Positions 44,538 through 62,409 of a DNA stretch of 64,000 bases are shown here, piece by piece. The position numbers and the translations under genes were made by a program. This stretch comes from an uncultured Clostridia bacterium. Its GTDB lineage: Bacteria; Bacillota; Clostridia; Oscillospirales; CAG-272. The notes below the pieces were generated by a model that did no database searches, was not told the origin of the DNA, and saw only the letters and a list, made by a program, of their open reading frames with translations. The DNA lies in contig CAOKAC010000009.1 in the NCBI GenBank assembly GCA_948466345.1, positions 1-64,000 on the forward strand. Reading direction: 5' to 3'. Within the stretch, counting starts at the first letter, position 1; every line of letters begins with the position of its first letter.

Positions 44538-45128
44538 TTACTTGGATTCAATAATTGTTAAATTATCTGGAACCACATTTGCCTGCTCATAAACAATCTC
44601 ACTAATCTGCGCTACTTCATTTTCCATAAGTCCCTGTGTTTTTACAATTACCTGGGCAGTTTCTCCGCTTACAACCGCCACACATTCTTCAAAGCCCTTA
44701 GCTTTAATAAGGCTTTCAATATTTGCTTCACACTCAATGTCTTTTGCAATTTTCTGAATCTCGTTGATTGCCTCTTCCTTCATTGCATCTACTGCCGTAT
44801 CGCTTTCAGCAACCGCGTTCAAAACTTCCATGGCCTCATCTCTTGCCTGACGTCTCTCCAGATTCATCTGTGCAAACTTGTCTTTTGCATTTGCATTGTC
44901 ATTCGATGCGCCTTTGGAATCTCCATTTGCAATTGCGCCAGCCACATCGGACAGATCCACTGCAGGATCCACTTTTTTCTTATCCTTAGCGGCATCTGTG
45001 GGCAGCAACAGAAAATTGAGCAGCACCGCTACCCCAATGATCACCACTGCGCCGGCGGAAATAACCGCCTTTCGATTTAGCTTTTTGATCATTTCTAACG
45101 TCTTTTCACCTAATTCTTTCAGTTTCAT
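44538..45128 (-). CDS. spoIIIAH: Stage III sporulation protein AH
   Basis: Mother-cell half of the feeding channel that docks with SpoIIQ across the engulfed septum. It has one N-terminal helix (about 21-42), an Asp/Lys/Asn-rich linker and the YscJ/FliF-like domain at about 95-196 (DEAMEVLNAVAE..., ECVAVVSGETAQVIVKTQGL). 196 residues is usual. Last gene of the A-H operon. No spoIIQ homologue is visible in this window, although the M23 gene at 25216 is a candidate in type only. Confidence 0.94.
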   Translation of the reverse strand: MKLKELGEKTLEMIKKLNRKAVISAGAVVIIGVAVLLNFLLLPTDAAKDKKKVDPAVDLSDVAGAIANGDSKGASNDNANAKDKFAQMNLERRQARDEAMEVLNAVAESDTAVDAMKEEAINEIQKIAKDIECEANIESLIKAKGFEECVAVVSGETAQVIVKTQGLMENEVAQISEIVYEQANVVPDNLTIIESK

Positions 45129-45186
45129 ATACCGACCTCCGATTTAAATTCATATTATACATATTCAGTCTATATGCGCTCTATTC

Positions 45187-45666
45187 CTACCCAGCAACTG
45201 TAATTCTGCCGGAAGAAATTCCAAGAGAAGCGCTGATGAGCTCTGTCACCTTTTTCTGGATCTGTACATTGTCACCGTTAGTGCATACAATAGCTACGCC
45301 GCGAATTTGTGGATATATCTCATTTATCAGTACCGTTTTATCACCTCCGTCCTCCTGCACTACCAGGTAGTCTCCCGTCCTTCCATCAGCCGATACAGAC
45401 GTATTTTGTGCATATACAAACTCGCTGCTCCCATCCATAGTAAGCAGTACCGCAGCATCATCAATCCCTTCTATACGCAGGATTAGAGCCTTGATTTTCT
45501 CCTCTAAAATTGTGCTGTAATAGGAGGGATCGCTCGATTTAGGGGCTGATGATGCATTCTCTTTTCCCTCTCCAACAGGAAGAAAGCGAGGAAGCAAAAT
45601 AAGCGCGATTCCCAGCACCGCTGCTCCAATCAACCACCATTTCTTTGCAAGCTCCATCAACTTCAT
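45187..45666 (-). CDS. spoIIIAG: Stage III sporulation protein AG
   Basis: Ring-forming protein of the mother cell-forespore channel. One helix (about 12-29) is followed by a linker and the conserved YYSTILEEKIKALILRIEGI...VLLTMDGSSEFVYAQN region, then the end IRGVAIVCTNGDNVQIQKKV. The ATG at 45666 has GGGGG four bases before it; an ATG at 45684 lies inside spoIIIAF. 159 residues. Between AF and AH in the usual order. Confidence 0.93.
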   Translation of the reverse strand: MKLMELAKKWWLIGAAVLGIALILLPRFLPVGEGKENASSAPKSSDPSYYSTILEEKIKALILRIEGIDDAAVLLTMDGSSEFVYAQNTSVSADGRTGDYLVVQEDGGDKTVLINEIYPQIRGVAIVCTNGDNVQIQKKVTELISASLGISSGRITVAG

Positions 45667-45676
45667 GTTACCCCCT

Positions 45677-46132
45677 TTATTCATTCTGCACCACTACCGT
45701 GCAGGAAAATAGCTTGGATAAAGTATCCGAGGCTTTCTTCGCATCTATTTTTATACTGGCCGGCAGTGTAACATGTACCTTTTCTGCCGCAAAGGACTCC
45801 GAATTGTCTTCCGGATATACAGCAACGGATATATCTCCAATATCCAATGAGTAGAGCTCTGCCATAGTCAATGCAATATTATAGGCCAGATACTGTGCGC
45901 TTTGCTCCTGGTATTCTGCGGGGGATTGCTGTTCATCCAGATTCCACTGGGTTTCAAGGCTGTCCATCCATTCGTCAAGCCCACCGGTTAGGGGAGATAA
46001 TGCAATCAGCGCTACGATCAAAGCGCCGGCAAAACCCACAAATTTGCCCATGCCTTCTTCCTCCGGCGCCGCTGCACAGAGCACCGCAACAAAAATAGAC
46101 GCAGCCACTACAGATAAGAGATAATTTGCCAT
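45677..46132 (-). CDS. spoIIIAF: Stage III sporulation protein AF
   Basis: Membrane component of the SpoIIIA complex. Two helices at about 4-22 and 29-47, then a soluble domain of ~100 residues with IALTMAELYSLDIGDISVAVY. Length 151 (family ~200, variable). Position between AE and AG is diagnostic, since the primary sequence is poorly conserved. Confidence 0.9.
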   Translation of the reverse strand: MANYLLSVVAASIFVAVLCAAAPEEEGMGKFVGFAGALIVALIALSPLTGGLDEWMDSLETQWNLDEQQSPAEYQEQSAQYLAYNIALTMAELYSLDIGDISVAVYPEDNSESFAAEKVHVTLPASIKIDAKKASDTLSKLFSCTVVVQNE

Positions 46133-46148
46133 TTACACACTCCCTACT

Positions 46149-47303
46149 TTATCCATATGCCAGGGATGTCCTGCAGAACAGAGATAAGGCGAATATATAC
46201 ATTACCGCTGCCGCTATGGTTATGGCTAGCAGTAAAGTACACAAACTTCCTGTCTCTCGAAACAGCGCTTGCTCTCTATCACAGCCAAGCACGCCCGCCA
46301 CAGCGCCAGTCATCCCAAGCGCTACCCTGTTTACCAGTAAGCCCGCAAGAGGAGCAAGCACCACAATTACAATTACAACGATTCCTGTAACACCCGCCAT
46401 CTGCTTAATCACTCCAAGGCTGCCGGAAACCATGGAAAAAGAGTCCGCCACCGTTCCGCCGATGATGGGAAGATAGCTTCCAAGCGCAAACTTGACCGTT
46501 TTAGCGGCAAAAGTATCCGCGGCGCTGGCTATTCCGCTCTGCATTGATAAAACGAAAGTCATAAGCGTCATCATCAGCACCAGCGCGCCGGTTACGATCC
46601 CCCGCAGCGCTCCCGCCATAAAAGATACGCCTCGGTTTCCGGATACGGCAGATGTAATAGATAAAAGGAAACATACGCTTACGCAAGGAGCAAGTACATT
46701 TGCATATAAAGTCTGAATAAATGTAATCATTAGATTAATGCCCGTTCCAGAAACAGCCGCTCCGGTTACGTTGCCGCTTGTAAGATAAACTGCTTCCATC
46801 ACCGGAACCATCATCAGCATGGTACTGCTGAGCATATCCAGCATGGACTGCACTAATGCAAAAACAGACTTTTGTACTTCATATAAGGTCAGCGCCATAC
46901 ACAAGAGACAACACAAAGAAAACACTGTCTCAAGGGAACCGTTTTTTACAGTTTTGGAAAGCATCCGAAATACGGAAGATAGAATCACCATTCCCATCAG
47001 AACAGACAGCGTTTTAAATCCAGGCAAAAGCGCATCACTAAAGGCGCTTTTGATAAGTGACAAAAAATAGGATACATTATATTTCTCCATCGCGCCCTGT
47101 GCGTCCCCTGCTTCTCCAACCTGCTGTCGGATTTCTGGAGGCAGCTTGTCAATATATGCTTCATAAGCGCCGTCTGCCGCTTCTTCCGGTCTCTCATCGA
47201 AGTGAAACTGATATGGCATGTCCTTTGCTGCACCGGATATTGTAAATATAAAAAGCAGAAGCGGCAAAAGCAGCAATACAAAAATTTGTCTTTTTCTTTT
47301 CAT
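46149..47303 (-). CDS. spoIIIAE: Stage III sporulation protein AE
   Basis: Polytopic inner component of the channel. Signal-like helix at 8-26, a short extracytoplasmic segment, then seven or so helices. FLSLIKSAFSDALLPGFKTL and FALGSYLPIIGGTVADSFSMV are highly typical family blocks. 384 residues is the usual size. It follows AD by 21 bases. Confidence 0.95.
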   Translation of the reverse strand: MKRKRQIFVLLLLPLLLFIFTISGAAKDMPYQFHFDERPEEAADGAYEAYIDKLPPEIRQQVGEAGDAQGAMEKYNVSYFLSLIKSAFSDALLPGFKTLSVLMGMVILSSVFRMLSKTVKNGSLETVFSLCCLLCMALTLYEVQKSVFALVQSMLDMLSSTMLMMVPVMEAVYLTSGNVTGAAVSGTGINLMITFIQTLYANVLAPCVSVCFLLSITSAVSGNRGVSFMAGALRGIVTGALVLMMTLMTFVLSMQSGIASAADTFAAKTVKFALGSYLPIIGGTVADSFSMVSGSLGVIKQMAGVTGIVVIVIVVLAPLAGLLVNRVALGMTGAVAGVLGCDREQALFRETGSLCTLLLAITIAAAVMYIFALSLFCRTSLAYG

Positions 47304-47324
47304 ACATCCTGTCCCTGTCCTATT

Positions 47325-47711
47325 TTACAAAAGCTCTGCCGCAATCTCCAGCAGTCTTGAAATTAAAGGCAAGCTTAAAAGAATCAGTTCCCCTTTTCCT
47401 GCAAGCACCGCTGCCGAAGCCAGCATTCCTTCCCCTGCGCTTTTACATAGTTCCGCTGTAAAGGCAGAGATATATGCGATTCCCAGCGCCTTTAACAGAA
47501 TCATTGCATAACCGGAAAAAGCCGTTTGCTCTGCGGCATCTGTAATTGTTTGTACCGCCGTAAGCGCGCTGCCTTCTAAAATATATAAAGCAACAGCAAC
47601 CACTGCTGCTGCCGCACAAAGCAGTGCAAAAACCGTATTCTTTTCCCGCAAAAGCAGCGCTGCGCATAGTCCTAACACGCAGATTCCGCTCAGTCGCAAT
47701 ATATCCGCCAT
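47325..47711 (-). CDS. spoIIIAD: Stage III sporulation protein AD
   Basis: Small membrane protein with four helices; LSGICVLGLCAALLLREKN at the start and SAFTAELCKSAGEGMLASAAVLAGKGELILLSLPLI-type ending are characteristic. The ATG at 47711 overlaps the AC stop as TGATG; a GTG one codon earlier is possible. 128 residues. Same protein fold as FliQ/FliR-like export parts has been proposed for AC/AD. Confidence 0.93.
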   Translation of the reverse strand: MADILRLSGICVLGLCAALLLREKNTVFALLCAAAAVVAVALYILEGSALTAVQTITDAAEQTAFSGYAMILLKALGIAYISAFTAELCKSAGEGMLASAAVLAGKGELILLSLPLISRLLEIAAELL

Positions 47712-47905
47712 CACAATCCAAACACGGTCTGCACTGTTTCAAACAAGGTACCGATTTCTCCCACCAACATCAGCAGTACTACGACAATACCGACTACAGT
47801 CACAAGCATCGCCTGTTCATCCCGTCCGGCACGCTGCAGAATCTGATTGGCTACGGCTACCAAAATTCCCACACCAACCGTTTTAAGTATCAGTGAAACA
47901 TCCAT
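47711..47905 (-). CDS. spoIIIAC: Stage III sporulation protein AC
   Basis: 64-residue two-helix membrane protein (3-22 and 30-60); SLILKTVGVGILVAVANQIL and GRDEQAMLVTVVGIVVVLLM match the family throughout. Stop overlaps the AD start. Lies 59 bases after AB. Confidence 0.95.
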   Translation of the reverse strand: MDVSLILKTVGVGILVAVANQILQRAGRDEQAMLVTVVGIVVVLLMLVGEIGTLFETVQTVFGL

Positions 47906-47964
47906 AATCTACCTGCTTTTCAATACATTTTCAGTAGAGGGCGCTGCCCTAGAGAATGCTGCTA

Positions 47965-48441
47965 TTATACAATCAGCAGCAGTACGGAAGCCGCCGCAAG
48001 CAGCGGCAAAAGCCTGTACATTTTAAGCCGTTGAGGAAGCTGCATGCGCATATCCTCACCGATTTTTCGCAGCCTCTCCTTTGTAAAATCACACAGTTTT
48101 GTTTCCTCGGGTGCAGAGCCTCCGCCGATTGTCCCCGCAAAAGAGCATAGCTGATCATAAATCTCCGGCGGAAGTTCTTTTTCTATAGCGGATACTGCTG
48201 GCGCCAGCCCATCGCGGCGCAGCGTATTTAAAAAGCCGATTTCTTCCAAGACTGTGTTATGATAATCATCAAAGATACGCCCCAGAGGCATCCGGAAGTT
48301 TTCTATACTCCCTCCGATATAGCAAACCAAGTCGTCCAGCGCCGTTACGATTGCAAGCCTCCGCTTCATCTTCTCACACATTCCCCGACCATATAGAGAT
48401 GCTGCAATAAATACCAGCGCCGCCCCCGCCAGCTTCAGCAT
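47965..48441 (-). CDS. spoIIIAB: Stage III sporulation protein AB
   Basis: Membrane protein with helices at both ends (5-22 and 140-157) and a helical middle related to type II secretion GspF. The sequence KLAGAALVFIAASLYGRGMCEKMKRRL is typical. The ATG at 48441 gives 158 residues, with AGGAG ten bases upstream. It overlaps the spoIIIAA end by seven bases. Confidence 0.93.
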   Translation of the reverse strand: MLKLAGAALVFIAASLYGRGMCEKMKRRLAIVTALDDLVCYIGGSIENFRMPLGRIFDDYHNTVLEEIGFLNTLRRDGLAPAVSAIEKELPPEIYDQLCSFAGTIGGGSAPEETKLCDFTKERLRKIGEDMRMQLPQRLKMYRLLPLLAAASVLLLIV

Positions 48442-49334
48442 ATCGCCGTCTCTCCTGCGCCGATTCGGTTTATATCCAAAGTAAATCCGGACTGCGTGCG
48501 TGAGAGGCCGACTGCATATGTAAAAGCACCGGAATCGATCAGCGTACGCATAAATGGACGGACACAAAGCTCTTCCAAACTGCCGGCATGAGCAGTTACT
48601 ACAGTTGGCACGCCAGCGCCAAAGCTTGTATAAATTGCCTGTGCATCCTCCTCACTACCAATTTCATCGCACAAAATGAGTTGTGGCGAGAGTGTGCGAA
48701 CAGCTGTCTCCATCCCCTTGGCCCGCGGATATCCCGACAGCGCGTCATAGGTTACGTCTCCGCCAAGAGACCCGCAAATTTCAAAGCGTGTGTCAATAAC
48801 TGCGATGCGGATATTATAAGGTTTCGCCCCCAGACGTGCGGCGATTTCCCGTAAAGCCGTTGTTTTTCCTATCCCAGGCGGGGAATATAAAATAGCGCCT
48901 CGAAATCCTTCTTCCAATATAAGACGGCATATCCCATCAGCAGCGCCCGGTACCCGATGGGGAATACGGATTGCCACAGACGAAATATCGGTCACCGATA
49001 GGATTTTCCCTCCCTCTGTCACAGCACGGCCACACACTCCTACACGAATACCGCCCTCCGTACAAATATATCCCTCTTTAATTGTCTCACTATGGCAGTA
49101 GAGAGAATTGCCGCACAATGATCGGATAATCATAGAAAGCTCATCAGCTGTTGGAGAAATACCGCAGGAAATATTTTTGCCTCCAATGCTTAAAAACATA
49201 GGGCAGCCTACCCGCAATCGAATTTCACTGATCATTCCATGATACAGGGCGGCTGATTTTCGTGCGGCTTCCGTCAGTCTGCCTGGCAGATACGCCAATG
49301 CTGCCTCTTCATTAAAGTCCTTCCCTTTTTCCAT
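48435..49334 (-). CDS. spoIIIAA: Stage III sporulation protein AA (ATPase)
   Basis: Secretion-type ATPase driving the channel. Walker A is SPPGIGKTT (151-159), Walker B LILCDEIGSEED, with RIAVIDTRFEICGS between. The N-terminal domain binds in EIRLRVGCPMFL. 299 residues. First gene of the operon; the ATG at 49334 follows AAAGGA by ~12 bases. A weak sigma-E-like promoter lies 61-91 bases upstream, as expected for spoIIIA. Confidence 0.95.
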   Translation of the reverse strand: MEKGKDFNEEAALAYLPGRLTEAARKSAALYHGMISEIRLRVGCPMFLSIGGKNISCGISPTADELSMIIRSLCGNSLYCHSETIKEGYICTEGGIRVGVCGRAVTEGGKILSVTDISSVAIRIPHRVPGAADGICRLILEEGFRGAILYSPPGIGKTTALREIAARLGAKPYNIRIAVIDTRFEICGSLGGDVTYDALSGYPRAKGMETAVRTLSPQLILCDEIGSEEDAQAIYTSFGAGVPTVVTAHAGSLEELCVRPFMRTLIDSGAFTYAVGLSRTQSGFTLDINRIGAGETAIC

Positions 49335-49532: not shown

Positions 49533-50459
49533 CTATTTTATATATAATGAATCAATAATTTTCTTCATTTGTTCTGGCTGAACCCGTCCTTTCAGCATAT
49601 ACTCAATACCGTCATAAATAAAATGTGCGCTCGTCACCGGGTTCAATTCATCAAATTCCATATTTGCCTTAGAAAGGAACGGATATGTCGCAATCACTGC
49701 TTCAACCCCATTCTTGTCAGATGTATATGTTAAAATTTTAATGCCTTCCACGTCGTACAGACCGCCGCTTTTATAATCGCTGTATTCATCGGACTCATAT
49801 ATATACGCACAATAATAAATCGGGGTTTGATAGGTATAATTTTTGTAAAAATCGAATGCTTCCTGTTCACTGCCATATAAAGGATCATAAACCAAATCAG
49901 AAAAACGAGGATTTTTCATAGCATCCCTCTCTACAGGGAGATCCCCCATTATATAATACGGGCAAAAGATTCTGATACTATTGATATTGTTTTCTTCTCC
50001 GCAAGCAGTCAAAACAGTATAAGGTTCTTCCCATTCATATGCCCAATCGCTTTGTAATAAATTTACATCATATCGTTTTGCAATATCGGAAACAGTAGGA
50101 AACAATTTTTCATAAACTTCGTATTCCTGATTTCTGTCTGCTAATGTAAAATCAGAAACATCCAATCCTTTAGGTGTCAATACAGATGTAAGCCGATAGC
50201 TGTTTTTCGTTATTTCGATCCAAAGGCTTTTCAATTCTTCTGCCGCATATGCGATAAAGTTAGTATGAAACACGACTGTCATAATAAGCGCGAATACAGC
50301 CGTCCCGGTAGCATATCGTAAAAAAAGAGACTTGTGCTTTTGTTTTTTCATAGGAGTGATATCCTTCTGCTTGAAAGATTGCGTTTTTATGTCTTGAAAA
50401 AGATCCTTTGGAGTATGCACCGCATTCATTGTATCCTTATAAAGCTCTTTGATATCCAT
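49533..50459 (-). CDS. Membrane protein, probable anti-sigma partner of the adjacent ECF factor
   Basis: 308 residues. The cytoplasmic N-terminus (~45 residues) is followed by one helix at about 48-70 and a ~235-residue external domain rich in Tyr and acidic residues. The end ITSAHFIYDGIEYMLKGRV...MKKIIDSLY resembles DUF4367 domains that follow ECF sigma genes. Its ATG directly follows the sigma stop codon without a spacer. No zinc-binding HxxxCxxC motif is present. The function is inferred from context. Confidence 0.7.
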   Translation of the reverse strand: MDIKELYKDTMNAVHTPKDLFQDIKTQSFKQKDITPMKKQKHKSLFLRYATGTAVFALIMTVVFHTNFIAYAAEELKSLWIEITKNSYRLTSVLTPKGLDVSDFTLADRNQEYEVYEKLFPTVSDIAKRYDVNLLQSDWAYEWEEPYTVLTACGEENNINSIRIFCPYYIMGDLPVERDAMKNPRFSDLVYDPLYGSEQEAFDFYKNYTYQTPIYYCAYIYESDEYSDYKSGGLYDVEGIKILTYTSDKNGVEAVIATYPFLSKANMEFDELNPVTSAHFIYDGIEYMLKGRVQPEQMKKIIDSLYIK

Positions 50460-50933
50460 TTATATGTCCTCCAAAATTAGTTTTTTTAGTATTTTACGTC
50501 CGCGGCAAAGCCGCGTACGTATCGTAGCTGCATTGACATGCAGCAAATTTGCTATTTCTAAAATAGAATAGTCTTCATAATAAAACAGATGAATAATCAT
50601 CCTATATTTGGGGGGAATGGTCATCACCCGTTCATATAAATCATTGTTGGGTTCCCCCGAAACACTTGCACGATCAGATAAATCCTCTACAGGTTCCACC
50701 ATTCTTTTCCAATATGACTTTTTCAGATTTCTGCTTTCATTGAGCGCTACACGGATCAGCCATCGTCGGATATGATTTTCATCCTGAAACAACATGTCCG
50801 TCTGTAGCAGTTTAAAAAAAGTATTCTGCAAAATATCCTGTGCGTCATGATAAGACTTGGTAGCGTTCAGTGCTGTGCGGTAAACAACATCGGTAAATTG
50901 ACACACATAGGTTTGATATTCCTCATCGCACAT
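50460..50933 (-). CDS. ECF-type RNA polymerase sigma factor
   Basis: 157 residues with region 2 (VVYRTALNATKSYHDAQDILQNTFFKLLQ, including the DAxDxxQ-type core) and region 4 helix-turn-helix (SILEIANLLHVNAATIRTRLCRGRKILKK), with no region 3. The ATG at 50933 has AGGAGG eight bases upstream; a GTG at 50942 would sit on the RBS. The following gene is a candidate membrane anti-sigma factor. The stimulus is not evident. The region is more AT-rich than the spoIIIA operon. Confidence 0.92.
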   Translation of the reverse strand: MCDEEYQTYVCQFTDVVYRTALNATKSYHDAQDILQNTFFKLLQTDMLFQDENHIRRWLIRVALNESRNLKKSYWKRMVEPVEDLSDRASVSGEPNNDLYERVMTIPPKYRMIIHLFYYEDYSILEIANLLHVNAATIRTRLCRGRKILKKLILEDI

Positions 50934-51033
50934 GGTTACCACCTCCTTATTTTACAATGTTTTGAAAGGCTTCTCATATAAATAAACAATTCAAAGCAGC
51001 AAAATGTTTCATAGAATAAGAAAATATTTTTAT

Positions 51034-51061
51034 AAAAAAAGCTCCCCCAATAAGGGGGAGC
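51034..51061 (-). terminator. Terminator of the TerB_N/ATPase/helicase operon
   Basis: GCTCCCCC / GGGGGAGC with loop TTATT, followed by TTTTTTTATA on the minus strand, 20 bases after the helicase stop codon. Confidence 0.94.
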
Positions 51062-51081: not shown

Positions 51082-53241
51082 TCAAATAAATGTGGCCTTT
51101 AGACCCTCAAAATCCAGAAAATCTTCTACAAACTGCTTGCGCAGCAGAGATTGAGGGATAAACTCATTATATTTATTTTGTATCTGTACCTTAGCCGGCA
51201 GCGGGAAATTAGCCGGATCCACGTCCCAATGGAAAATCTCCCCTATAAGGGCCTCCAACTCGGCCGCATCGCCTTTATAATATACTTCTAAGTATATACA
51301 GGTTTCCCATGGCATTTTGCTCTGGACACCCCGAGCCAGCAACGCATAATGGAGCGCAAACAACTGCCGGGTTCCTACCCATGGGAAAATGGCAAATTTT
51401 TGTTCCGACAGAGGCGTAACGATTTTGTCCAGCAAGCCCGCGCCTCTGGCAAGATACCGAATTTCTCCTAACCGTTCTACGCAGCTGTCGCTCAAGTACG
51501 GATAACTTTCGTTTTCTTTTAAAACATACCGGATTTTTTGGACCAAATGCGTATGCAGCTCCGACTTAAAATCCACATCCCAGTCTACAAGGGATACACC
51601 CGGTACCCGCTGGACAAACAATACCTTTGCTTTTACATTCACATCTACCGTTTCCCATGTGATGCCGGCAAGGGAAAAGCGCGTCCCTACAGGATAAATT
51701 TTGTCCACTGTGCCAATGGCACGATTTTCGTCCTTTACCAGATAATACTCCGGAACAATAAAGACCGTATAAAACTGATGATGATTTACCACCTTTTCCC
51801 CGGCACGCCCGATAATCAGACCGCCGCGTTCTGTCTCCTGCAGTTGCTCTATTTCAATAAGATGGTGCAAAAGAATTCTATAATCCTCCTTCGATATATG
51901 AGAAAAACTTTCCATAGAGAGCATTGCCTGTGCCAATGCAGCCGGGGACGTCTCGCCGCTGCTTTTCAAATAACTCATCGTTTGATGGTACAGCAGCGAA
52001 TACGGATGCAGATGAGGTTCGATTGGCTCAATCCACCGTTCTTTTGTATATAGTTCAATGATAGCGATCAGCCGAATAAAGGCCCAATTGATAGGGCCTA
52101 GAAAATCCGTCGCTGTAGTCTGTACGTCCTCTGTAAAGGTAAAAAGCAGCTGCGGAATCTGTCCGCGCCTGCCGCATCGTCCAAGGCGCTGAGCAAAGCT
52201 GGAAACATTGATAGGCGCCCCCACCTGCACTACCTGATCCAGAGACCCGATATCCATTCCCAACTCCAACGTCACCGTAGCACCTGTAACGATTTTCTCC
52301 TCTGAGGACTTCATTTCATCCTCCGTTTGCTCCCGAAGCATAGCAGACACATTTCCATGATGCACCCGGTACACATCCGGCGCCTTATTTTTAGCGGCAA
52401 TCTGACGCAAATTTGCCACTACAAATTCTGTTTCCTCTCTGGAGTTGGTAAAGATAATCGTTTTTTTATCCAGAGTCATCCGAAACAAATATTCAAAATG
52501 CTCCCGGTCTCCCGCATCTCCTATCTCGCTGGTTGTCTCTCCCTGCCGGACAAAACGGTTGACAAAGAGACGAATGCTCCGCTTTTCTGTCTCGCTCACC
52601 GGAGCGATGCAGTCACGGCCGCTTCCTGTATTCAGCCACTTTTTTGCAAGGGTCAAGTCACCTAACGTAGCACTTAGACCAATTCTTCTGGGAATATTTC
52701 CTGTAATCCGCTGCAGCCGTTCCAGCAGACACAGCACCTGTACGCCTCGGCAGTCCCGCATAAAATGGTGTACCTCATCAATGATTACATATCGAAGGTC
52801 GGAAAATAGCTTTAAACAAGATCCTCGTTTGTTTATCAGGAGACTCTCCAGAGATTCCGGCGTAATCTGTAAAATTCCCGCAGGGTGCTTCACAAGCGAA
52901 TTTTTCTTTGCCTGGGAAGCATCTCCATGCCATTTGCACACAGGAATATCCGATTCCAAAATAAGCTGCTCCAATCGTTTAAACTGGTCGTTGATCAAAG
53001 CCTTTAGGGGACTGATGTAGAGTACTCCTACTGAAGCAGACGGACAATTGTACAATTCTGTCAGTACCGGCAGAAAAGCCGCTTCTGTCTTCCCTGATGC
53101 TGTACCGGAGGAAAGCAACAAATTAGCATCTGTATCAAAAATCACATCGCAGGCGGCTACCTGGATTCCACGTAGTTCTTTCCAATGGTTGTTATAAATG
53201 TAATCCTGTATAAACGGCGCAAGCCGTGCAAATGCATCCAT
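51082..53241 (-). CDS. Lhr/BrxHI-like DEVH superfamily 2 helicase
   Basis: A 719-residue SF2 helicase. Motif I GTASGKT is at 46-52, Ia ISPLKAL, II DEVH at 155-158, III SAT at 190-192, and motif VI QRLGRCGRRG at 351-360. After the two RecA lobes come ~350 residues with winged-helix and beta parts typical of Lhr-like helicases (COG1201). The overall build resembles BrxHI of BREX type 2. Its ATG overlaps the ATPase stop (TAATG), so it is the third gene of a coupled operon, ended by a strong terminator. All helicase motifs are intact. It probably moves on DNA or RNA:DNA duplexes (family knowledge). Confidence 0.9.
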   Translation of the reverse strand: MDAFARLAPFIQDYIYNNHWKELRGIQVAACDVIFDTDANLLLSSGTASGKTEAAFLPVLTELYNCPSASVGVLYISPLKALINDQFKRLEQLILESDIPVCKWHGDASQAKKNSLVKHPAGILQITPESLESLLINKRGSCLKLFSDLRYVIIDEVHHFMRDCRGVQVLCLLERLQRITGNIPRRIGLSATLGDLTLAKKWLNTGSGRDCIAPVSETEKRSIRLFVNRFVRQGETTSEIGDAGDREHFEYLFRMTLDKKTIIFTNSREETEFVVANLRQIAAKNKAPDVYRVHHGNVSAMLREQTEDEMKSSEEKIVTGATVTLELGMDIGSLDQVVQVGAPINVSSFAQRLGRCGRRGQIPQLLFTFTEDVQTTATDFLGPINWAFIRLIAIIELYTKERWIEPIEPHLHPYSLLYHQTMSYLKSSGETSPAALAQAMLSMESFSHISKEDYRILLHHLIEIEQLQETERGGLIIGRAGEKVVNHHQFYTVFIVPEYYLVKDENRAIGTVDKIYPVGTRFSLAGITWETVDVNVKAKVLFVQRVPGVSLVDWDVDFKSELHTHLVQKIRYVLKENESYPYLSDSCVERLGEIRYLARGAGLLDKIVTPLSEQKFAIFPWVGTRQLFALHYALLARGVQSKMPWETCIYLEVYYKGDAAELEALIGEIFHWDVDPANFPLPAKVQIQNKYNEFIPQSLLRKQFVEDFLDFEGLKATFI

Positions 53242-54557
53242 TATATTTCAAACCCCACAAAATCGCTGTGTATCTCTTCATCTGACAGACCGCCCTTGGC
53301 CAGCGCAAAGCTGTTGCCGCCCAAAATTTCGGCAATGGTTTTATCTGGGTTTTGATGCAGAATATTGACCAGTTCTACAAAGTCGCGGATAATCTCTCTA
53401 GGCGTAATATGGGTGTCGGCACCCACACGGTTATATTCCACATTCAAAAAGTAGAGAAGATCTTCATGGGTCAGCGCCGGTGCATAATCATACAAGCCAG
53501 CATGTATATCTCGTAGCTTTTCCACTAAAACATACATTTCTTCCTGAGTGAGCATGGAAAGACGGATAATGGGTGCGGATAAATCCCGCATATCCTCCGA
53601 TGCAAAGTGTCCCTCAGACAAACGGGAACGCAGCGCTTCATAACTGAAAATCCCCTTGTACCGATCCTCTACACACTGGGGTGTGCAGCCCATCAAAAAG
53701 CCAATATGCCTGGCTTTTCCCTGAAGCGTATCGTTATACATGGTCAGCATTTTTTCATAGTTATTTTGCCGGGTAATAGAATTGGGAATTTTAAAAATAT
53801 TGACCAGTTCATCTACCATTACAAGAATTCCTGCATATCCTGCCCGCACCATAAATGCGGCAAATACCTTTAAAAAGTCATACCAAGTCTCATCAGTAAC
53901 GATATAATTAATAGCCAATTCTTCTCTGGCTTCCTTTTTGGAAGTATACTCTCCGCGAAACCACTTAAGCACATTGGATTTAGCAACGACATCGTCTGCC
54001 TTGTATGCCCGCCAGTAAGCGGCCACTGCCTTAGCAAATTCAAAGCCGCTGACCATACCTTCAAGTTCTCCCGTCACCCCATAGATTCGCTTTTCTACCA
54101 AGCTGTCAAAGGCAGGATCATTGGTATCGCATTCCATAGCAACCTGTGTCTGAATCCCGGAAATCCATTTTTCCAGAATCAAAGGCAGCGCGCCGCCATC
54201 CGGCTTAGACTTAACCGACATGTTACGGATCAACTCTTTATAGGTAGCCAATCCCTGCCCTTTTGTACCGGCAAACCGACGTTCTGGCGAAAGGTCCGCA
54301 TCTACCACCACAAAGCCCCGCGCCGTAGCATAATTGCGAATGGTCTGCAAAAGAAAGCTTTTGCCGCTGCCGTATTTTCCAACAATAAAACGGAAGGTCG
54401 CGCCCCCATCTGCAATTATATCAATATCGTGCAAAATCGCATCGATTTCTCGTGCACGGCCTACGGTAATATATTCTAATCCAACTCTAGGCACAACGCC
54501 CCCTTTCAGGGCATTTATAATTGTACTTGCAATTCGTTTCGGTACCCGCGTCTCCAT
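53241..54557 (-). CDS. DUF2791/BrxD-like P-loop ATPase
   Basis: 438 residues. Walker A GKYGSGKS at 60-67 follows VGRAREIDAILHDID; Walker B ILVMVDE at 244-250. The block FLMGCTPQCVED with YKGIFSYEALRSRL (286-313) is the hallmark of DUF2791 ATPases, the family of BREX BrxD. A C-terminal ORC/AAA-like helical part follows. It is coupled by TGATG to the upstream TerB_N gene and by TAATG to the helicase, so the three products are made together and likely form a complex. BrxC is a much larger relative and is not meant here. The biochemical role is unknown. Confidence 0.9.
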   Translation of the reverse strand: METRVPKRIASTIINALKGGVVPRVGLEYITVGRAREIDAILHDIDIIADGGATFRFIVGKYGSGKSFLLQTIRNYATARGFVVVDADLSPERRFAGTKGQGLATYKELIRNMSVKSKPDGGALPLILEKWISGIQTQVAMECDTNDPAFDSLVEKRIYGVTGELEGMVSGFEFAKAVAAYWRAYKADDVVAKSNVLKWFRGEYTSKKEAREELAINYIVTDETWYDFLKVFAAFMVRAGYAGILVMVDELVNIFKIPNSITRQNNYEKMLTMYNDTLQGKARHIGFLMGCTPQCVEDRYKGIFSYEALRSRLSEGHFASEDMRDLSAPIIRLSMLTQEEMYVLVEKLRDIHAGLYDYAPALTHEDLLYFLNVEYNRVGADTHITPREIIRDFVELVNILHQNPDKTIAEILGGNSFALAKGGLSDEEIHSDFVGFEI

Positions 54558-56176
54558 CAGTTTTCCACCACTTCCATCAGTTTTTCTTTATGTTCATCAT
54601 ATACAATCACTGTGTCGTCTATCTCCAGAATCGTATCTCCTATAATATCCATGGCCTTTCCGTTGATCCCGTCCAGCAAAACCTCCAGCATAATTTTGCT
54701 GTCTCTGGCTACATCCTTCACGCATTTCCCTTTCAATACAGCCTGCAGTGCCGCCGTCTCCGGCTCTGTCAAGCCGGAAACAAGCTGCCGCCAAGGATTT
54801 TCCTCTACCAGCGGTGCAGGTGCTATAATCACAGGAGTCTCCACTGCAGCAATTTCTTCCTCTTCCTCTGGAACAATCAGCTTGTCCTGAGTTTCCAACG
54901 CCTCCCGACGGATACGGCTGACTGCAGCCGTATCTACACGCACCTCTGTTCGGTTCCGGAGTGCCAGAAAGGCTCGCACTCCCTCTGTGATCTTCTCTGG
55001 TAAGGAAATTCCCACGCTTTGCAGCCGTTTCAATATTTTAGGGCTGCACATATCTGGAGAGCTACGAAGCTTGTACCGAAAATGCAGCGCAGTACGCAAG
55101 GCAGCCTCCATTTCTTTTATAATATATCCGACTAGGCATTTTCCCTCATCCTTCAGCAATACTGAACGGTATGTCCACCGATTCTTTGTACAAATGTACG
55201 TCTCCCGCGGGGACAGTTCCACGGCACGATCTTCCTGTTCCAGATATGGATAAAACAAAGCGCCTGCAAAAGGTTTCCAATCTGAATCCTTATGCATAGA
55301 ATAAAATATAAAGTCCTCAAAAATTTTCTTTTTTTCTCTGCACAGCTTTCGCAAATAGGAAAGAAGAAAATAAAAGCAGTCATGGATCAGCGATTTGGTT
55401 TCATCTGTATAAAAAATAGATTTGCGAATATCATATTTGGATAAGTCCGCATACACGTCCAAGCTATCTTCTTTTTCAGATGTATAAGCAAACACCTTTG
55501 GATAATATTTTTTCAAATTCTGCTGTGCTGCAAATGCGGCAAAAGTCTGTTCCATTGGATAATATACGTAAAAATCCTTGATCCATTGAAGTACATATTT
55601 ATCAATGGTTTTATCTATCTTCCGATATACACGCCAAAAATCCAAAAGCTTCTGCATGCTCTCCTCAGGGGATGTTGATCCGATGCAGGCCAGCAGTTCG
55701 TATATATACACAAAAGCATAAGAAACCGACGTACCTTGTATATCTCCCACACGCACCCGTGTACGCCAAGTGAAATATGTGCGAAGCTGTCCGTACCCCA
55801 TCAGCTGATAATATGGAAAATAAAAGGAGAACGGCGCCGCTCCGGGGTAATCGTCTGTGAATTGCTCCATCATCCGGGCTTGCTCATAGAAAACTTTTGA
55901 AGGGTTACCTAGGTAGGACAGATCCCGGCGGGCAATTTGCCGCATTTCATAAAACAGCGTTCGTTTTTTATCTGGAGCAGCCTGTATTTTCTGACACGAC
56001 GGAAACGCTTTCACACCAGACATTCCTCGGTCCTCCAGCAAAATCTCTGCAAATTTTATCTCCCAAGGAGATTTTTCTTCCGACATTGGCGTCTGTTCTT
56101 TTGTTTCGGAGTTTATCGCCTTCAGCTCTTCTCTGCTGGGGATAGGCTGGGGCTCGTAATTTCTTCTTTCGTCCAT
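54557..56176 (-). CDS. TerB_N / TerB_C-type domain protein
   Basis: 539 residues, cytoplasmic. The TerB_N-like region spans about 75-270, with the diagnostic YFTWRTRVRVGDIQGTSVSY (134-153) followed by AFVYIYELL. Residues ~380-460 are variable and include a Glu run. A TerB_C-like end occupies ~463-539 (LKGKCVKDVARDSKIMLEVL, then DIIGDTILEID). I cannot find a clear central TerB metal-binding core. First gene of the operon with the DUF2791 ATPase and helicase. AAAGGG precedes the ATG, and an extended -10 promoter is 40 bases upstream. Ter-domain proteins are linked to tellurite, phage and DNA-damage responses; the role here is inference. Confidence 0.82.
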   Translation of the reverse strand: MDERRNYEPQPIPSREELKAINSETKEQTPMSEEKSPWEIKFAEILLEDRGMSGVKAFPSCQKIQAAPDKKRTLFYEMRQIARRDLSYLGNPSKVFYEQARMMEQFTDDYPGAAPFSFYFPYYQLMGYGQLRTYFTWRTRVRVGDIQGTSVSYAFVYIYELLACIGSTSPEESMQKLLDFWRVYRKIDKTIDKYVLQWIKDFYVYYPMEQTFAAFAAQQNLKKYYPKVFAYTSEKEDSLDVYADLSKYDIRKSIFYTDETKSLIHDCFYFLLSYLRKLCREKKKIFEDFIFYSMHKDSDWKPFAGALFYPYLEQEDRAVELSPRETYICTKNRWTYRSVLLKDEGKCLVGYIIKEMEAALRTALHFRYKLRSSPDMCSPKILKRLQSVGISLPEKITEGVRAFLALRNRTEVRVDTAAVSRIRREALETQDKLIVPEEEEEIAAVETPVIIAPAPLVEENPWRQLVSGLTEPETAALQAVLKGKCVKDVARDSKIMLEVLLDGINGKAMDIIGDTILEIDDTVIVYDEHKEKLMEVVEN

Positions 56177-56341: not shown

Positions 56342-56605
56342 TTAAACACACTGTCCGTGTGTGTCCTCTAGCTTGATAATGCGCATATTCTGCATTTGCA
56401 TGGCATCTTTCAGATCAGCAATATTTTTGTGAAACGCTTCATGCTCCTGCTTATTCTGACTGGTCAGATTCGTCAGAGTGCAATTCAAGTTTTCCACAGA
56501 GTAATTAAGCTTTGTCAGGGTTCTGGAAAGTTCATAAATAACCTTTCCGATAGCTATGCCTGCAGTTGCCAGAGACAAAAAGCCTACAACAATATCCCAA
56601 GTCAT
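56342..56605 (-). CDS. XhlA-like phage membrane/coiled-coil protein
   Basis: 87 residues: one helix at about 4-24, then a coiled coil (LTKLNYSVENLNCTLTNLTS and onward) ending in a short charged tail. This is the build of XhlA/haemolysin-type accessory proteins found next to phage holins and lysins. The ATG at 56605 overlaps the preceding stop (ATGA) with GAGGTG seven bases upstream. No holin or endolysin follows it, since a terminator and the TerB_N operon come next. Assigned from topology and position. Confidence 0.7.
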   Translation of the reverse strand: MTWDIVVGFLSLATAGIAIGKVIYELSRTLTKLNYSVENLNCTLTNLTSQNKQEHEAFHKNIADLKDAMQMQNMRIIKLEDTHGQCV

Positions 56606-57198
56606 TGCGGCACCTCGTTCCAGCCATGTATGCCAGGCTCCCATACATTGTTATCCACATCCGAAATCCAGTGCTTGTCCAAATGACATACCTTATCTCC
56701 CAACATATACACATCGTGTGCACCCACAGGCTGTGCCCATGTCGGCCACTCTTCTCCACAGTCACCTACACATGTCCAAAGTGACGCAGAGATCTCCGGC
56801 GTCCAGTCAAGCTGAGATGTGTGCTCTTGAATACAGCGATACAGACTCTGCCCAAAGGCACAGATATCGCCTTTTTTATAGTGTACAGAGTGATTCCAAT
56901 CTGCAAATAATTCTGCGTGCTCCATCACAGCAACATCATCCAAAATCTGTGCCTGTGCAAGAGCCACGAAGGTAAGAAACGCCGTATTCATCAGTTTCTT
57001 TGTATCCTCCTGCCAAATCAGCATTACTGTGGGGCGATCAATTTGAGGACGGCCATCCACATGATAAATCTCTCCGTCCAAAATAACGCCTTGACCCTCA
57101 CTTTCATCGCAGCATACAAACACACCGTTATCCTGCAGCTTTACCCACTGGAGCCGCTGCGCCATCTTTTCTTTTCCATCTATCCATGTATGATACAT
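56602..57198 (-). CDS. Phage tail-end protein with CBM5/12-type modules
   Basis: 198 residues. The N-terminal half (LQDNGVFVCCDESEGQGVI...LIWQEDTKKLMNTAFL) is common in Firmicutes prophages after tail-fibre genes. It is followed by two aromatic-rich ~45-residue modules, WNHSVHYKKGDICAFGQSLY with WTCVG, and WPTWAQPVGAHDVYMLGD with WNEV, which look like carbohydrate-binding family 5/12 repeats. It may help the particle or a lysin bind host glycans (inference). The end overlaps the XhlA-like gene. Confidence 0.78.
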   Translation of the reverse strand: MYHTWIDGKEKMAQRLQWVKLQDNGVFVCCDESEGQGVILDGEIYHVDGRPQIDRPTVMLIWQEDTKKLMNTAFLTFVALAQAQILDDVAVMEHAELFADWNHSVHYKKGDICAFGQSLYRCIQEHTSQLDWTPEISASLWTCVGDCGEEWPTWAQPVGAHDVYMLGDKVCHLDKHWISDVDNNVWEPGIHGWNEVPQ

Positions 57199-57221
57199 AA
57201 CTTTTTTCTCCTTTTCTTAAT

Positions 57222-59234
57222 TTAAACGCAAAATCCAAAACATACGCCATGATATCCAGACGCTCTGAACGTATTAGCATCGCCGTATGAACTAATATAT
57301 ACAAAATTGGAAGAATTTCCAGTCTGAGGAGAACGGGTCCACCAATGGCTGGGACATTCCGCCCCATTAGACAAGAATTTTTTGCGGCTGTTGTTGTCCG
57401 TGAAAATTGGATACTTGTATCCTTCTCCAGGAACAGAAAGTGAAACACTACCCATACACTCCAGCTGGGAAAACAGAAACAAGGATACAACGTCCGTGCG
57501 CATTGTATGGCTTGCAGCGCCAGACGAAGTTTGCTTTTTTACCGGTTTGATAACAGCACGCAGGTCGGCAGGCAGCATATTCCATAAACCCTGTTTCATC
57601 CAGTTGTATAGGTTCGCTCCTGTAAATCCTCCTTCGTTCGTATCAGACGTATTCATCTGACGATAACTGCTCATAAGATTTTTCAGTCCAAAGGTAATAC
57701 CAGCTTTTCCCGTTCCGCTTGCCAAATCGTCATGGCGAAAATCGTAAATCTGCAGGGTAAGAATTTGACCGTCACTACAAGTGATATTTATTGTGTCTCC
57801 CACACTCCAATATTTAGACGCTATACCATTGGAAGATGCCTGCGCAATCTCTGACCAGCTGTTAAGAGACAAAATATTGAAATATCCCCGATATTGCCCA
57901 TTTGTTTCCGTTGGTGTAAAGGTCTTTGTATAACCATCACAGGTTACAGTATAAGTCTGTCCTGTTGTTACGATACCAACAGTAACCTCTGCCTCCTGTG
58001 GTACTACATTGGAGTATCCACTAAATCCTCTGCCTGTTATCGTAAAGGCTTTTCCGACAAAACGTGTACTAAAAGACAAAACAAACAGGGTGCTTTCTTT
58101 TTTGGGAACAGGGTTGAGCAACTGCCATGCAGATCCGTCAAATATAAATAAAGCCCGCGCCTGTCCTGGAATCAAGTCCTGGTTCCAATAAATGCTGTTA
58201 TTATATTGAATCGGATATGTTCCCGAATTATTGATGTTCAAATATAATCTCTCATCTATGCTGTCTGTTGCTGCATTTCGAAAATATACCGTCACCATGA
58301 CTCCAGTTCTTAGAGTGAACCCACTGCCCACATTTACCGTTTTGGTATAAGTAGAAGTAGAAGTAGTACAGGTACCGTAAAAAGTATTTTGACTTCCTGT
58401 ATGTGCTTCCAGCGCCTGCTTTACCAACGCGCTTGACGGCGGCAGACTGCCGTTCTGGGCAATATTCGTATTGTTGATAAGTGCACGTGTCTGAAGCGTA
58501 TAACTGTTTGTTAATGGTATATATTGTACTACATACTCCGTTTCTGCTCCGCCATTAAAAACATATTTATAGCCCTCCTCACATTTTTCCTCTCTGCGAA
58601 CCAACGTATACACTTTCTCTCCGCTTTTCAAAATCACATTCGGCTCTCCCGATGCCTGATGGAGCGCCCGCAAAGCTGTTATATTGGACGACTGATTTGT
58701 CACAAACTGCAGAACTGTAGCAGATTTTGCGTTGCTGTTCCAAAGCGTCCGCTCTGCTGCGGTAATATGTACATCTTTGCTTTCTGTATGTGCTTCCAGT
58801 GTTTGCTTCACCAATGTGCTGGACGGCGGCAGACTGCCGTTCTGGGCAATATTCGTATTGTTGACCAGCGCACGTGTCCGAATCGTATAGCTGTTTGTTG
58901 ACGGTGTATATCGTACTATATACTCCGTTTCTGCTCCGCCATCAAAAACATAATCGTAGCCTGCATCAGCCTTTGTTTCCCTGCGAACCAACGTATACAC
59001 TTTCTCTCCGCTTTTCAAAATCACATTCGGCTCATCTGACGCTTGATGGAGCTCTCTCAAAGCCGTTATATTGGACGACTGATTTGTCACAAACTGCAGA
59101 ACTGTGGCGGGATCTGCCTTACTATTCCAATTTGTTCGTTCTGCATCCCCTACCAGCGCGCTTATTCCTCTTGTATCCAACTGCAAAATCGCCCGCGCTC
59201 CATCTTGGGACAATTCTTTCACTTTTATAGCCAT
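57222..59234 (-). CDS. Tail-fibre-like protein with tandem repeats and DUF6273-like C-terminus
   Basis: 670 residues. After ~30 residues come two copies of a ~129-residue unit (AERTxWNSxAxxATVLQFV, LPPSSxLVKQxLEAHT), then beta-rich sections and a C-terminal domain of ~140 residues. The latter contains NLMSSYRQMNTSDTNEGGFT, WNMLPADLRAVIKPVKKQT and SHWWTRSP, ending GVCFGFCV, the DUF6273 pattern seen in phage receptor-binding proteins and some diversity-generating-retroelement targets. ATG 59234 has GAGG nine bases upstream. No reverse transcriptase lies in the window. Probably a receptor-binding or fibre protein. Confidence 0.82.
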   Translation of the reverse strand: MAIKVKELSQDGARAILQLDTRGISALVGDAERTNWNSKADPATVLQFVTNQSSNITALRELHQASDEPNVILKSGEKVYTLVRRETKADAGYDYVFDGGAETEYIVRYTPSTNSYTIRTRALVNNTNIAQNGSLPPSSTLVKQTLEAHTESKDVHITAAERTLWNSNAKSATVLQFVTNQSSNITALRALHQASGEPNVILKSGEKVYTLVRREEKCEEGYKYVFNGGAETEYVVQYIPLTNSYTLQTRALINNTNIAQNGSLPPSSALVKQALEAHTGSQNTFYGTCTTSTSTYTKTVNVGSGFTLRTGVMVTVYFRNAATDSIDERLYLNINNSGTYPIQYNNSIYWNQDLIPGQARALFIFDGSAWQLLNPVPKKESTLFVLSFSTRFVGKAFTITGRGFSGYSNVVPQEAEVTVGIVTTGQTYTVTCDGYTKTFTPTETNGQYRGYFNILSLNSWSEIAQASSNGIASKYWSVGDTINITCSDGQILTLQIYDFRHDDLASGTGKAGITFGLKNLMSSYRQMNTSDTNEGGFTGANLYNWMKQGLWNMLPADLRAVIKPVKKQTSSGAASHTMRTDVVSLFLFSQLECMGSVSLSVPGEGYKYPIFTDNNSRKKFLSNGAECPSHWWTRSPQTGNSSNFVYISSYGDANTFRASGYHGVCFGFCV
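58371..59144 (-). repeat. Two direct repeats of 387 bases inside the tail-fibre-like gene
   Basis: The unit starting at the AERTNWN codons (59144) recurs as AERTLWN at 58757. The same words, such as ATGTGCTTCC, are 387 bases apart on the plus strand at 58401 and 58788, so the period is 129 codons. The copies are close but not identical at DNA level (many third-position changes), showing an older in-frame duplication kept by selection. Confidence 0.88.
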
Positions 59235-60847
59235 TTTGTTTCTCCTCTCCTTTTTATACATAAATGCTGTAATTCATTATTAACACGTATCGCCAAAGGT
59301 TCTCCTGCAAGAGCCAAAGTCCAAAAATCGTACTCACCCTCATCAATAAACGACTTCATAGCCGCGCAAAACTGAATCCATCGATTGATGTCCTCACGTA
59401 ACGGAGTAGTTTCATGAAATTCCTTATGCTCTACATAGTACGGATTGATCCAGTCCATTATTTGGTTGATTTTGTCAATGTTACGCTCCAAGGCATTAAT
59501 TTTTATCTTAAGTTCCCGTATATTGGTACTATACCCTCTAGAAAAATCAATATCCTCCAATGGTTCCAGACTTTCTTCTCCAAAAACCTCTGCAAAGCGA
59601 TTCCATACGTAGCAAAGATTGGTTTGAACTGCGGCGGGAATCCGATAATCCCATCGGCATCCCTGGGGCAAAGAAAACATCTCATTCCACGCCGATGTTC
59701 CCTCTTCTTCTACCTGTACTTTACAAATATAATTTGTAGTTTCAGACGCCCCATATGAATGAATTATAATGGTCGCTTGCCCAACACCGACTCCAGTCAC
59801 CACGCCATCGTCCGTTACCTCAGCTACCTCCGTATTGTGGCTTTTAAAGACTAGGCTTTTGTGGCTGGCCGTTTCCGGATATACAGAATAAATAATATTG
59901 CTTGTTCCATTTACAGGAAGATATATTTGCGGGTTGATGACGTATACACATTTTATATCTTCTTCTACATTTATGATTACAAATGTCTCTGCTCCGCCGC
60001 CGTCTGCCGCACAAATATTGATACGGCATGTTCCTGCGGAACAGGCACGCACCATTCCACTTCGTGAAACAGTAGCTACCTTGGGGTTGCTGCTGGTATA
60101 CGATACTTCATGAATGCTGGCCGTTTCCGGAAATATCTGCACACGCAGCTGTGTCGTCGAGCCTTTCTGCAAAGGACTGTCTCCCCACGCCGAAATAGAC
60201 TTTACATATATCGGCTTTGTTGTAAAAATTTCTGTCACTGTGCGGGTGGCAATACCGTTTGCGGCTATCGCCCGAAATGTTGCTGCATACTGCGTATTGG
60301 GCTGCAAATCTTGAAAAGTTGCAACCCCTTCTTTGACCCTTTTTTCTATATTGTTTACGGTAAATATATATTCCTGGATCCCAAGGGCATGGCTGGCTTC
60401 CATAGTAAGAGTTACTGTGTTCTGATCCACTTCTGCCACTTGCCTGTGCTCCAATACAGGCGGGATCTGGGGAACCGGGTCCAAAATTACCTCCCCTTCC
60501 GCTTTCATTGTATTTTCTCCCACACGCCATACGGCAGACAGCTTTACCGTTCTTGTACCATCAAGACCGTGCGGAATTCCCTTCCATTCCCATCGGGTCA
60601 AATATTTGTTCTTGGTACCAGAGTTACCGCCCAAGTTGTCCGAAAAAGCCGGGGTCTTTACCGTATGTGGCTCACCAAACTCCGCAAGGTCTACTGTTAT
60701 TTCTCCCGCAAACACTGCCATAGTTAAGCTGTATCGATAATATACTGTCAGCGCCACATCACTGGTGTTTTTCTCATTGTTGACCTCCGAATCCCATACA
60801 CAATATAAATGGGAATGACCTATTCCTTCAAAATATCCACTTGCCAT
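59225..60847 (-). CDS. Phage structural protein with FN3 and BIG2 Ig-like domains
   Basis: 540 residues. N-terminal ~125 residues of unknown beta-rich type (DVALTVYYRYSLTMAVFAGE). A fibronectin III domain follows at about 130-212 (LQPNTQYAATFRAIAANG). Two bacterial Ig-like group 2 domains are at ~215-300 and ~305-390 (SSNPKVATVSRSGMVRA; SHNTEVAEVTDDGVVTGVGVGQATI). A helical C-terminal region of ~140 residues with NRFAEVFGEESLEPLEDIDF ends the protein. Such Ig-like domains decorate tails and bind glycans weakly. The end overlaps the tail-fibre start by ten bases. Confidence 0.82.
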   Translation of the reverse strand: MASGYFEGIGHSHLYCVWDSEVNNEKNTSDVALTVYYRYSLTMAVFAGEITVDLAEFGEPHTVKTPAFSDNLGGNSGTKNKYLTRWEWKGIPHGLDGTRTVKLSAVWRVGENTMKAEGEVILDPVPQIPPVLEHRQVAEVDQNTVTLTMEASHALGIQEYIFTVNNIEKRVKEGVATFQDLQPNTQYAATFRAIAANGIATRTVTEIFTTKPIYVKSISAWGDSPLQKGSTTQLRVQIFPETASIHEVSYTSSNPKVATVSRSGMVRACSAGTCRINICAADGGGAETFVIINVEEDIKCVYVINPQIYLPVNGTSNIIYSVYPETASHKSLVFKSHNTEVAEVTDDGVVTGVGVGQATIIIHSYGASETTNYICKVQVEEEGTSAWNEMFSLPQGCRWDYRIPAAVQTNLCYVWNRFAEVFGEESLEPLEDIDFSRGYSTNIRELKIKINALERNIDKINQIMDWINPYYVEHKEFHETTPLREDINRWIQFCAAMKSFIDEGEYDFWTLALAGEPLAIRVNNELQHLCIKRRGETKWL

Positions 60848-60853
60848 TGTATC

Positions 60854-62404: not shown

Positions 62405-62409
62405 TGGCC

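Follow-up and report, generated by a model that had tools for sequence, protein, structure and literature searches.

Shango is a known anti-phage system encoded by three adjacent genes in a fixed order, a TerB-type sngA, an ATPase gene (sngB) and a DEAD/DEAH helicase gene (sngC); its test in E. coli is said to be that of Millman 2022. Operons combining TerB-domain proteins with a helicase and an ATPase were reportedly predicted, in the literature on the Ter-dependent stress response, to be DNA-processing systems. In these predicted operons a TerB_N/TerB_C protein lies next to an ATPase and a helicase, as in three overlapping minus-strand genes of the DNA described here, a stretch of 64,000 nucleotides (the window) from contig CAOKAC010000009.1 of an uncultured Clostridia bacterium (assembly GCA_948466345.1).

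The TerB-operon prediction is cited as a forerunner of Shango in PMC10250203, where the PA14 Shango trio, placed in PAO1, lowered plating 10-100-fold for many, not all, phages. According to the same paper (its reference 22), anti-phage testing of Shango was done in E. coli too. The table of a 2026 review gives the mechanism of Shango as unknown (PMC12926258), and our literature search on Shango, its mechanism or core-genome occurrence, and TerB found no dedicated mechanism paper among those listed. SngC, BrxHI, DruE and DpdJ were placed together in a helicase clade that may be distinct (PMC12278908), and BrxD was suggested to load or activate BrxHI (PMC12839542). Restriction-modification genes are described as preferring co-location with Shango genes outside defence islands (PMC10924106).

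The explanation that best fits our observations as a whole, to which we give a probability of about 0.6, is that the trio is an intact Shango in which SngB may load SngC under the control of SngA, that the system is near-core and vertically inherited in the host's family, and that the copy in the window was spread horizontally.

Identity of the operon

Judged by its sequence, the trio is an intact Shango operon, sngA-sngB-sngC, because the best PADLOC model of each protein is that of SngA, SngB and SngC, respectively. The first protein matched the SngA model (204 bits) and no other. The second scored 607 bits (4.1e-183) with the SngB model versus 145 bits (8.3e-43) with BrxD, the third 752 bits with SngC versus 396 bits (6.9e-119) with BrxHI (E-values for SngA and SngC in Table 1). 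Pfam searches found TerB_N (PF13208, 1.3e-22) and TerB_C (PF15615, 4.7e-16) in SngA, and they bore out the ATPase and helicase families proposed in an earlier note on this DNA: SngB matched BrxC_BrxD (PF10923, 8.4e-160), SngC matched DEAD and Helicase_C and, at a score below the cut-off, WH_Lhr. The three genes are adjacent and stand in the Shango order; in families, order and gene overlaps the operon shows no difference from the described system. The same A-B-C order was also found on plasmids of Paenibacillus, Mesorhizobium and Halocatena.

The earlier note had read the trio as a defence set resembling bacteriophage exclusion (BREX) type 2. It was right that the operon is of the defence type, related to yet distinct from BrxD/BrxHI, with a TerB_N/TerB_C protein as third partner; it missed that this is a named and tested system. 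With BREX type 2 the trio shares a homologous dyad of an ORC/Cdc6-like ATPase and an Lhr-like helicase (PMC12839542), but here the genome has no BrxC match, SngA is the third partner and SngB lies far under the BrxD cut-off. Hachiman (HamAB) is likewise a defence system with a superfamily 2 (SF2) helicase, connected with genome surveillance (PMC12278908). However, HamA is a nuclease, whereas family searches of SngA, SngB and SngC gave no nuclease domain, and HamB is placed in the Ski2 group, SngC in a separate clade (PMC12278908).

The one-base overlaps described earlier (TGATG at 54557, TAATG at 53241) are present, and the open reading frames (ORFs) have exactly the coordinates first assigned to them. 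The operon had also been credited with one promoter and one terminator. The terminator, a strong stem followed by a T run, was confirmed; a shared promoter was not supported by the promoter scan, which found no minus-strand promoter-like site 5′ of sngA and was not discriminating (12 regional sites, shuffle mean 11.3). The trio contig comprises 71,665 bases of an assembly of 1,997,065 bases in 14 contigs (97.64% complete). Among the matches, the nearest named relative of the host was Candidatus Avispirillum faecium (Clostridia).

Table 1. Features of the Shango operon and its surroundings (positions in the window)
Feature	Position	Strand	Remarks
sngA	54557..56176	minus	539-aa ORF; TerB_N residues 72-257, TerB_C residues 408-533; first gene of the operon; PADLOC SngA 1.4e-60
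sngB	53241..54557	minus	438-aa ORF; ORC/Cdc6-like AAA+ ATPase
sngC	51082..53241	minus	719-aa ORF; SF2 helicase (Lhr-type, DExH); DEAD/Helicase_C; PADLOC SngC 2.3e-226
Intrinsic terminator 3′ of sngC	51041..51061	minus	8 pairs, 7 GC, then TTTTTTT; 21-41 bases 3′ of the sngC stop codon
SngB Walker A, GKYGSGKSF, residues 60-68	54354..54380	minus	8/9 positions invariant or >=90% conserved (59 sequences); exception K61
SngB Walker B acidic pair, D249-E250	53808..53813	minus	invariant in 59 sequences
SngC motif I, TASGKTE, residues 47-53	53083..53103	minus	intact by alignment
SngC motif II, DEVH, residues 155-158	52768..52779	minus	intact by alignment
Predicted winged helix-turn-helix (wHTH) at the SngA C-terminus, residues 457-539	54560..54808	minus	weak fold match
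spoIIIA operon, 3′ of the trio	44538..49334	minus	shared by the genus sub-clade as neighbour of the trio; does not belong to the system
Extracytoplasmic function (ECF)-type sigma factor and 308-aa protein without Pfam match	49533-50942		between sngC and spoIIIAA
Phage-type cluster	56342-63998, on to ~67.4 kb of the contig		Ig-like Big_2, DUF6273, CBM_5_12, small PHROG-1009-like and major-tail-type genes

Motifs, folds and a possible mechanism

In addition to the SngC motifs of Table 1, the protein contains SATL and QRLGRCGRR, which we take to be helicase motifs. A PDB sequence search with SngC matched Lhr, YprA and Ski2-like helicases; the same search gave no useful match for SngA or SngB. When the model of SngB was used in a fold search, ORC/Cdc6 proteins occupied 10 of the top 11 rows and TnsC also matched; the predicted ORC/Cdc6-type AAA+ fold match covers most of the domain. 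The AlphaFold2 model of SngA had a mean predicted local distance difference test (pLDDT) score of 88.8, and Foldseek found nothing for it at E <= 0.001.

A mechanism can be proposed in which the AAA+ protein SngB would act as loader of the helicase SngC on DNA that is invading the cell or replicating; the fold of SngB, the analogy with ORC/Cdc6 and the published BrxD-BrxHI suggestion all point this way. The predicted wHTH of SngA may contact DNA and gate the SngB-SngC machine. As the outcome, phage replication would likely be blocked and phage DNA disrupted without a nuclease of the system's own, because the family-profile searches found no nuclease domain in SngA, SngB or SngC.

Two clades of SngB

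Trees of SngB contained two clades, E and M. Clade E consists of 49 rows of the host's own family and sub-clades of the families f17 (9 rows) and f6 (2 rows), with a joint support of 98. It follows taxonomy, each sampled family keeping its own sub-clade. The copy in the window belongs to clade M, together with Lachnospiraceae, Oscillospiraceae, Bifidobacterium, Myxococcota, Thermodesulfobacteriota and rows of families f7, f10, f14 and f26. The breadth of clade M is better sampled than that of clade E because most of its rows were collected for their similarity to the window, and records of metagenome-assembled genomes among them may be mislabelled. Three rows of family f16 fell outside both clades. 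Proteins shorter than 350 aa are left out of the trees, as are duplicate rows and any second locus of a genome; 55 of the 105 SngB carriers and four genus genomes are included, and a second tree omits 30 clade-M rows. No clade-M copy was present in the 99 genomes with clade E, versus six in the other 47 (Fisher 9e-4, off-tree carriers assigned by identity), a difference confounded by ancestry on which we do not lean.

More distant SngB proteins, all of <60% identity, occurred in 681 of 72,556 plasmid records. The 50,697 phage records contained none, and a pattern-limited scan of IMG/VR gave five contigs. Among the plasmid matches, six SngB relatives from Salmonella (H10-H15) have an alignment in two pieces with no listed gene beneath it, and are perhaps broken.

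The operon of the window is intact and unremarkable as a Shango; it belongs to the mobile clade M and has settled in its host. In most sampled genera clade E appears to be a vertically passed near-core set; these relatives differ from described Shango in being seemingly vertical, near-core and often split among separate loci.

Presence in the family and beyond

With the SngB of the window as query (E <= 1e-20), SngB was found in 105 of 146 family genomes and in 76 of the 103 that are >=90% complete with <=5% contamination. SngC was present in 103 of the 146 (PADLOC model, E <= 1e-100; of 14 control genomes three matched this model at E <= 1e-80, none at 1e-100) and SngA in 105 (E <= 1e-12). 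All three genes occurred in 100 genomes, none in 38 and a partial set in eight, nearly all carriers having a single copy of each. On the same genomes the marker controls Cas1 and HsdR were found in 24/146 and 26/146, respectively. The HsdR control search also located a type I restriction (HSDR_N) gene in the host (G000 contig C1:172059-172637).

In another draw, a stricter SngB criterion gave lower figures, 10 of the 18 family genomes listed and 43 of 227 other genomes of the order. By the stricter criterion SngB was present in 12/22 genomes of the sister family and in 23/398 across the phylum, the host included.

Since most sampled family genomes carry all three genes even when these are unlinked, the Shango set of the family is likely an inherited component of the cell, not a passing mobile defence. 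Universality and synteny, which the earlier note had named as evidence against its reading, were found in part: the set is near-core in the family (100/146), yet it is not universal and lacks synteny between most genera, and the lineage of the window holds a different, horizontally spread version.

A few genomes had unusual gene sets or frames. G020 and G127 (genus g20) had SngC without detected SngA or SngB, the sole such cases in the 146; another g20 genome, G082, carries the full set. An SngB frame at G228:C58:13583-14899 contains two in-frame TAG codons and is either a pseudogene or belongs to a genome reading TAG as an amino acid. SngA matches at G103:C6:19040-20473 and G130:C71:24791-26431 have one in-frame stop each, possibly broken genes or assembly errors.

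Broken-up operons

SngA and SngB were <=1 kb apart in 97 of the 104 genomes with both. For SngB and SngC (101 genomes with both) the distance was <=1 kb in 55 and 1.1-3.8 kb in seven; in 39 the genes were on different contigs. In 34 of these 39 an artefact of contig ends is excluded, since the contig runs on for 1.8 kb or more past SngB or before SngC; the other five are left uncertain by contig ends. In three genomes of genus g17, SngA was on a different contig from SngB and SngC. Solo SngC genes had varied neighbourhoods (25 loci, G055 of uncertain status among them). SngAB was directly upstream of one gene cluster, named alaS from one member (L131), in 7 of the 23 SngAB loci examined, the seven coming from six genera. 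On the clade-E tree (the 49 own-family rows and 11 rows of f17/f6) the split/linked label requires at least seven changes, three of them forced by well-supported branches; one 'split' row (G055) is one of the five cases left uncertain by contig ends.

Outside the family, 16 named loci had no SngC beside SngB. Eleven were covered, the remaining five being on short contigs, and nine of the eleven have SngC elsewhere in the genome, as broken-up Shango: L077, L084, L086, L092, L094, L096, L097 (a locus ending 0.7 kb past SngB), L085 and L116. They include 7/8 mostly Defluviitaleaceae records and Acetatifactor muris DSM 23669 (L085), whose copy is of clade M. The 15 SngC matches listed from this search all had E below 1e-209.

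Co-presence without linkage supports SngABC as one functional machine. Shared ancestry inflates the co-presence count; the argument is carried by the repeated splits, not by the raw counts. Genes that stay together across many genera while unlinked are good evidence for one machine, and Shango callers that require the genes to be adjacent would overlook copies that are split.

History in the host genus

SngC was detected in 8 of 17 genus genomes, most of them incomplete assemblies: six proteins are close (87-100% identity, the window included) and two distant (43-45%). In four genomes (window, G008, G121, G146) the trio stands at the same spot beside spoIIIA. Between the window and G008 the synonymous divergence (dS) was 0.89-1.17 for the trio and 0.99-1.36 for four spoIIIA genes, and the trio looks as old as its neighbours in the sub-clade. 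The ratio of nonsynonymous to synonymous divergence (dN/dS) was 0.03-0.05 for SngB and SngC (10 pairs), 0.10-0.18 for SngA (8/10 pairs, two undefined) and 0.03-0.05 for spoIIIAA (5/6 pairs), rough values because most pairs are close to or beyond saturation in dS. The trio is under purifying selection in the genus, SngA being the quickest to change.

Six genus members have a spoIIIAA locus without the trio, with at least 2.5 kb visible ahead of spoIIIAA in four and ~0.6 kb in two. No clean empty site was found among the genus members with a spoIIIAA locus: the trio-less spoIIIAA genes are only 56-68% identical to that of the window, so that the acquisition appears to be old and an empty site cannot be delimited. 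Most simply read, the trio was acquired once, before the sub-clade diverged, and was then kept beside spoIIIA.

Neighbouring genes

The gap between sngC and spoIIIAA looks like a small exchange spot, because its contents differ: G008 and G146 have other genes that do not match those of the window, and in G121 the gap is ~0.2 kb. On the other side, the earlier note's placing of the trio beside phage tail genes is roughly correct. Upstream genes have PHROG tail matches, some of which are due in part to Ig-like Big_2 repeats, and at ~67.0-67.4 kb of the contig there is a major-tail-type gene. The association looks incidental. In the relative G158, homologues of the first four genes after sngA lie in the same order ~10 kb from the trio, so the phage-type genes are not part of the trio system.

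Discussion

The family pattern could be that of a plain mobile defence operon, its frequency due to strong phage pressure and long vertical persistence and its splitting to neutral drift. We regard this as plausible, if doubtful. It agrees with the span of clade M over several phyla (Bifidobacterium, Myxococcota, Thermodesulfobacteriota), with the related SngB proteins in 681 plasmid records and with the sparse occurrence across the phylum (23/398, host included). However, the families of clade E each keep their own sub-clade, carriage by phages is almost nil (0/50,697; five IMG/VR contigs), and the two tested defence markers are ~4-fold rarer in the same genomes.

Alternatively, SngABC might be primarily a chromosomal genome-maintenance machine in this Clostridia order, a DNA-bound AAA+ protein loading an Lhr-type helicase where DNA is damaged or stalled, with the anti-phage operon a derived or parallel use. 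The single copy in nearly all carriers, the frequency of the full set (100/146, compared with 24/146 for Cas1 and 26/146 for HsdR), the agreement of clade E with taxonomy, the co-presence of unlinked genes and the position of SngAB directly upstream of alaS in 7/23 loci would fit such a role. But the set is not essential in the family, because 38/146 genomes have none of the three genes, and under the stricter draw SngB was found in only 10 of the 18 family genomes listed and in 12/22 of the sister family. SngA evolves faster than SngB and SngC, as arms-race proteins may, Shango is anti-phage elsewhere (PMC10250203), and more distant SngB proteins are widely carried by plasmids (681/72,556 records). 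On balance we consider a primary maintenance role unlikely.

That the trio is prophage cargo, belonging to the adjoining phage-tail-type cluster that begins ~165 bases upstream of sngA, is very improbable and was rejected on the G158 distance and the zero matches in phage records; the trio-spoIIIA junction common to four genomes also speaks against it. Hardly credible at all is a BREX type 2 system that has decayed or is incomplete, to which the PF10923 and BrxHI-like matches could point: the SngB and SngC models exceed BrxD and BrxHI by >460 and >350 bits, SngB scores 147.8 bits with the NCBIfam BrxD equivalog (cut-off 350 bits), the same trio occurs on bacterial and archaeal plasmids, and the host genome (97.64% complete) has no PF10923 (BrxC_BrxD) gene besides sngB, so that BrxC was not seen. 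The model scores and the absence of a second PF10923 match led us to reject a BREX remnant. PglZ, PglX and PglW had no match among the scanned flanking genes; no whole-genome search was made for them.

We thus prefer an intact, horizontally spread Shango in the window, with a near-core, vertically inherited counterpart in its relatives. We tentatively go one step further, at somewhat short of even odds: the Shango genes of this Clostridia order may form, instead of a mobile immune operon, a core, vertical three-part DNA-surveillance machine (an ORC/Cdc6-like loader, its helicase of the Lhr type and a DNA-binding gate of the TerB type), selected despite several independent operon breaks and serving the chromosome in the way that the mobile version serves against phage.

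The operon itself is one further Shango, and the interesting part is its vertical, near-core and operon-broken retention in the relatives. The family is a natural experiment in which the genes of a defence system behave as core genes do. It makes the mechanism of Shango testable through the loader-helicase idea, as well as the notion that certain defence systems are genome-maintenance machines that became domesticated, and its pattern raises the question whether the role of Shango there is still immunity alone.

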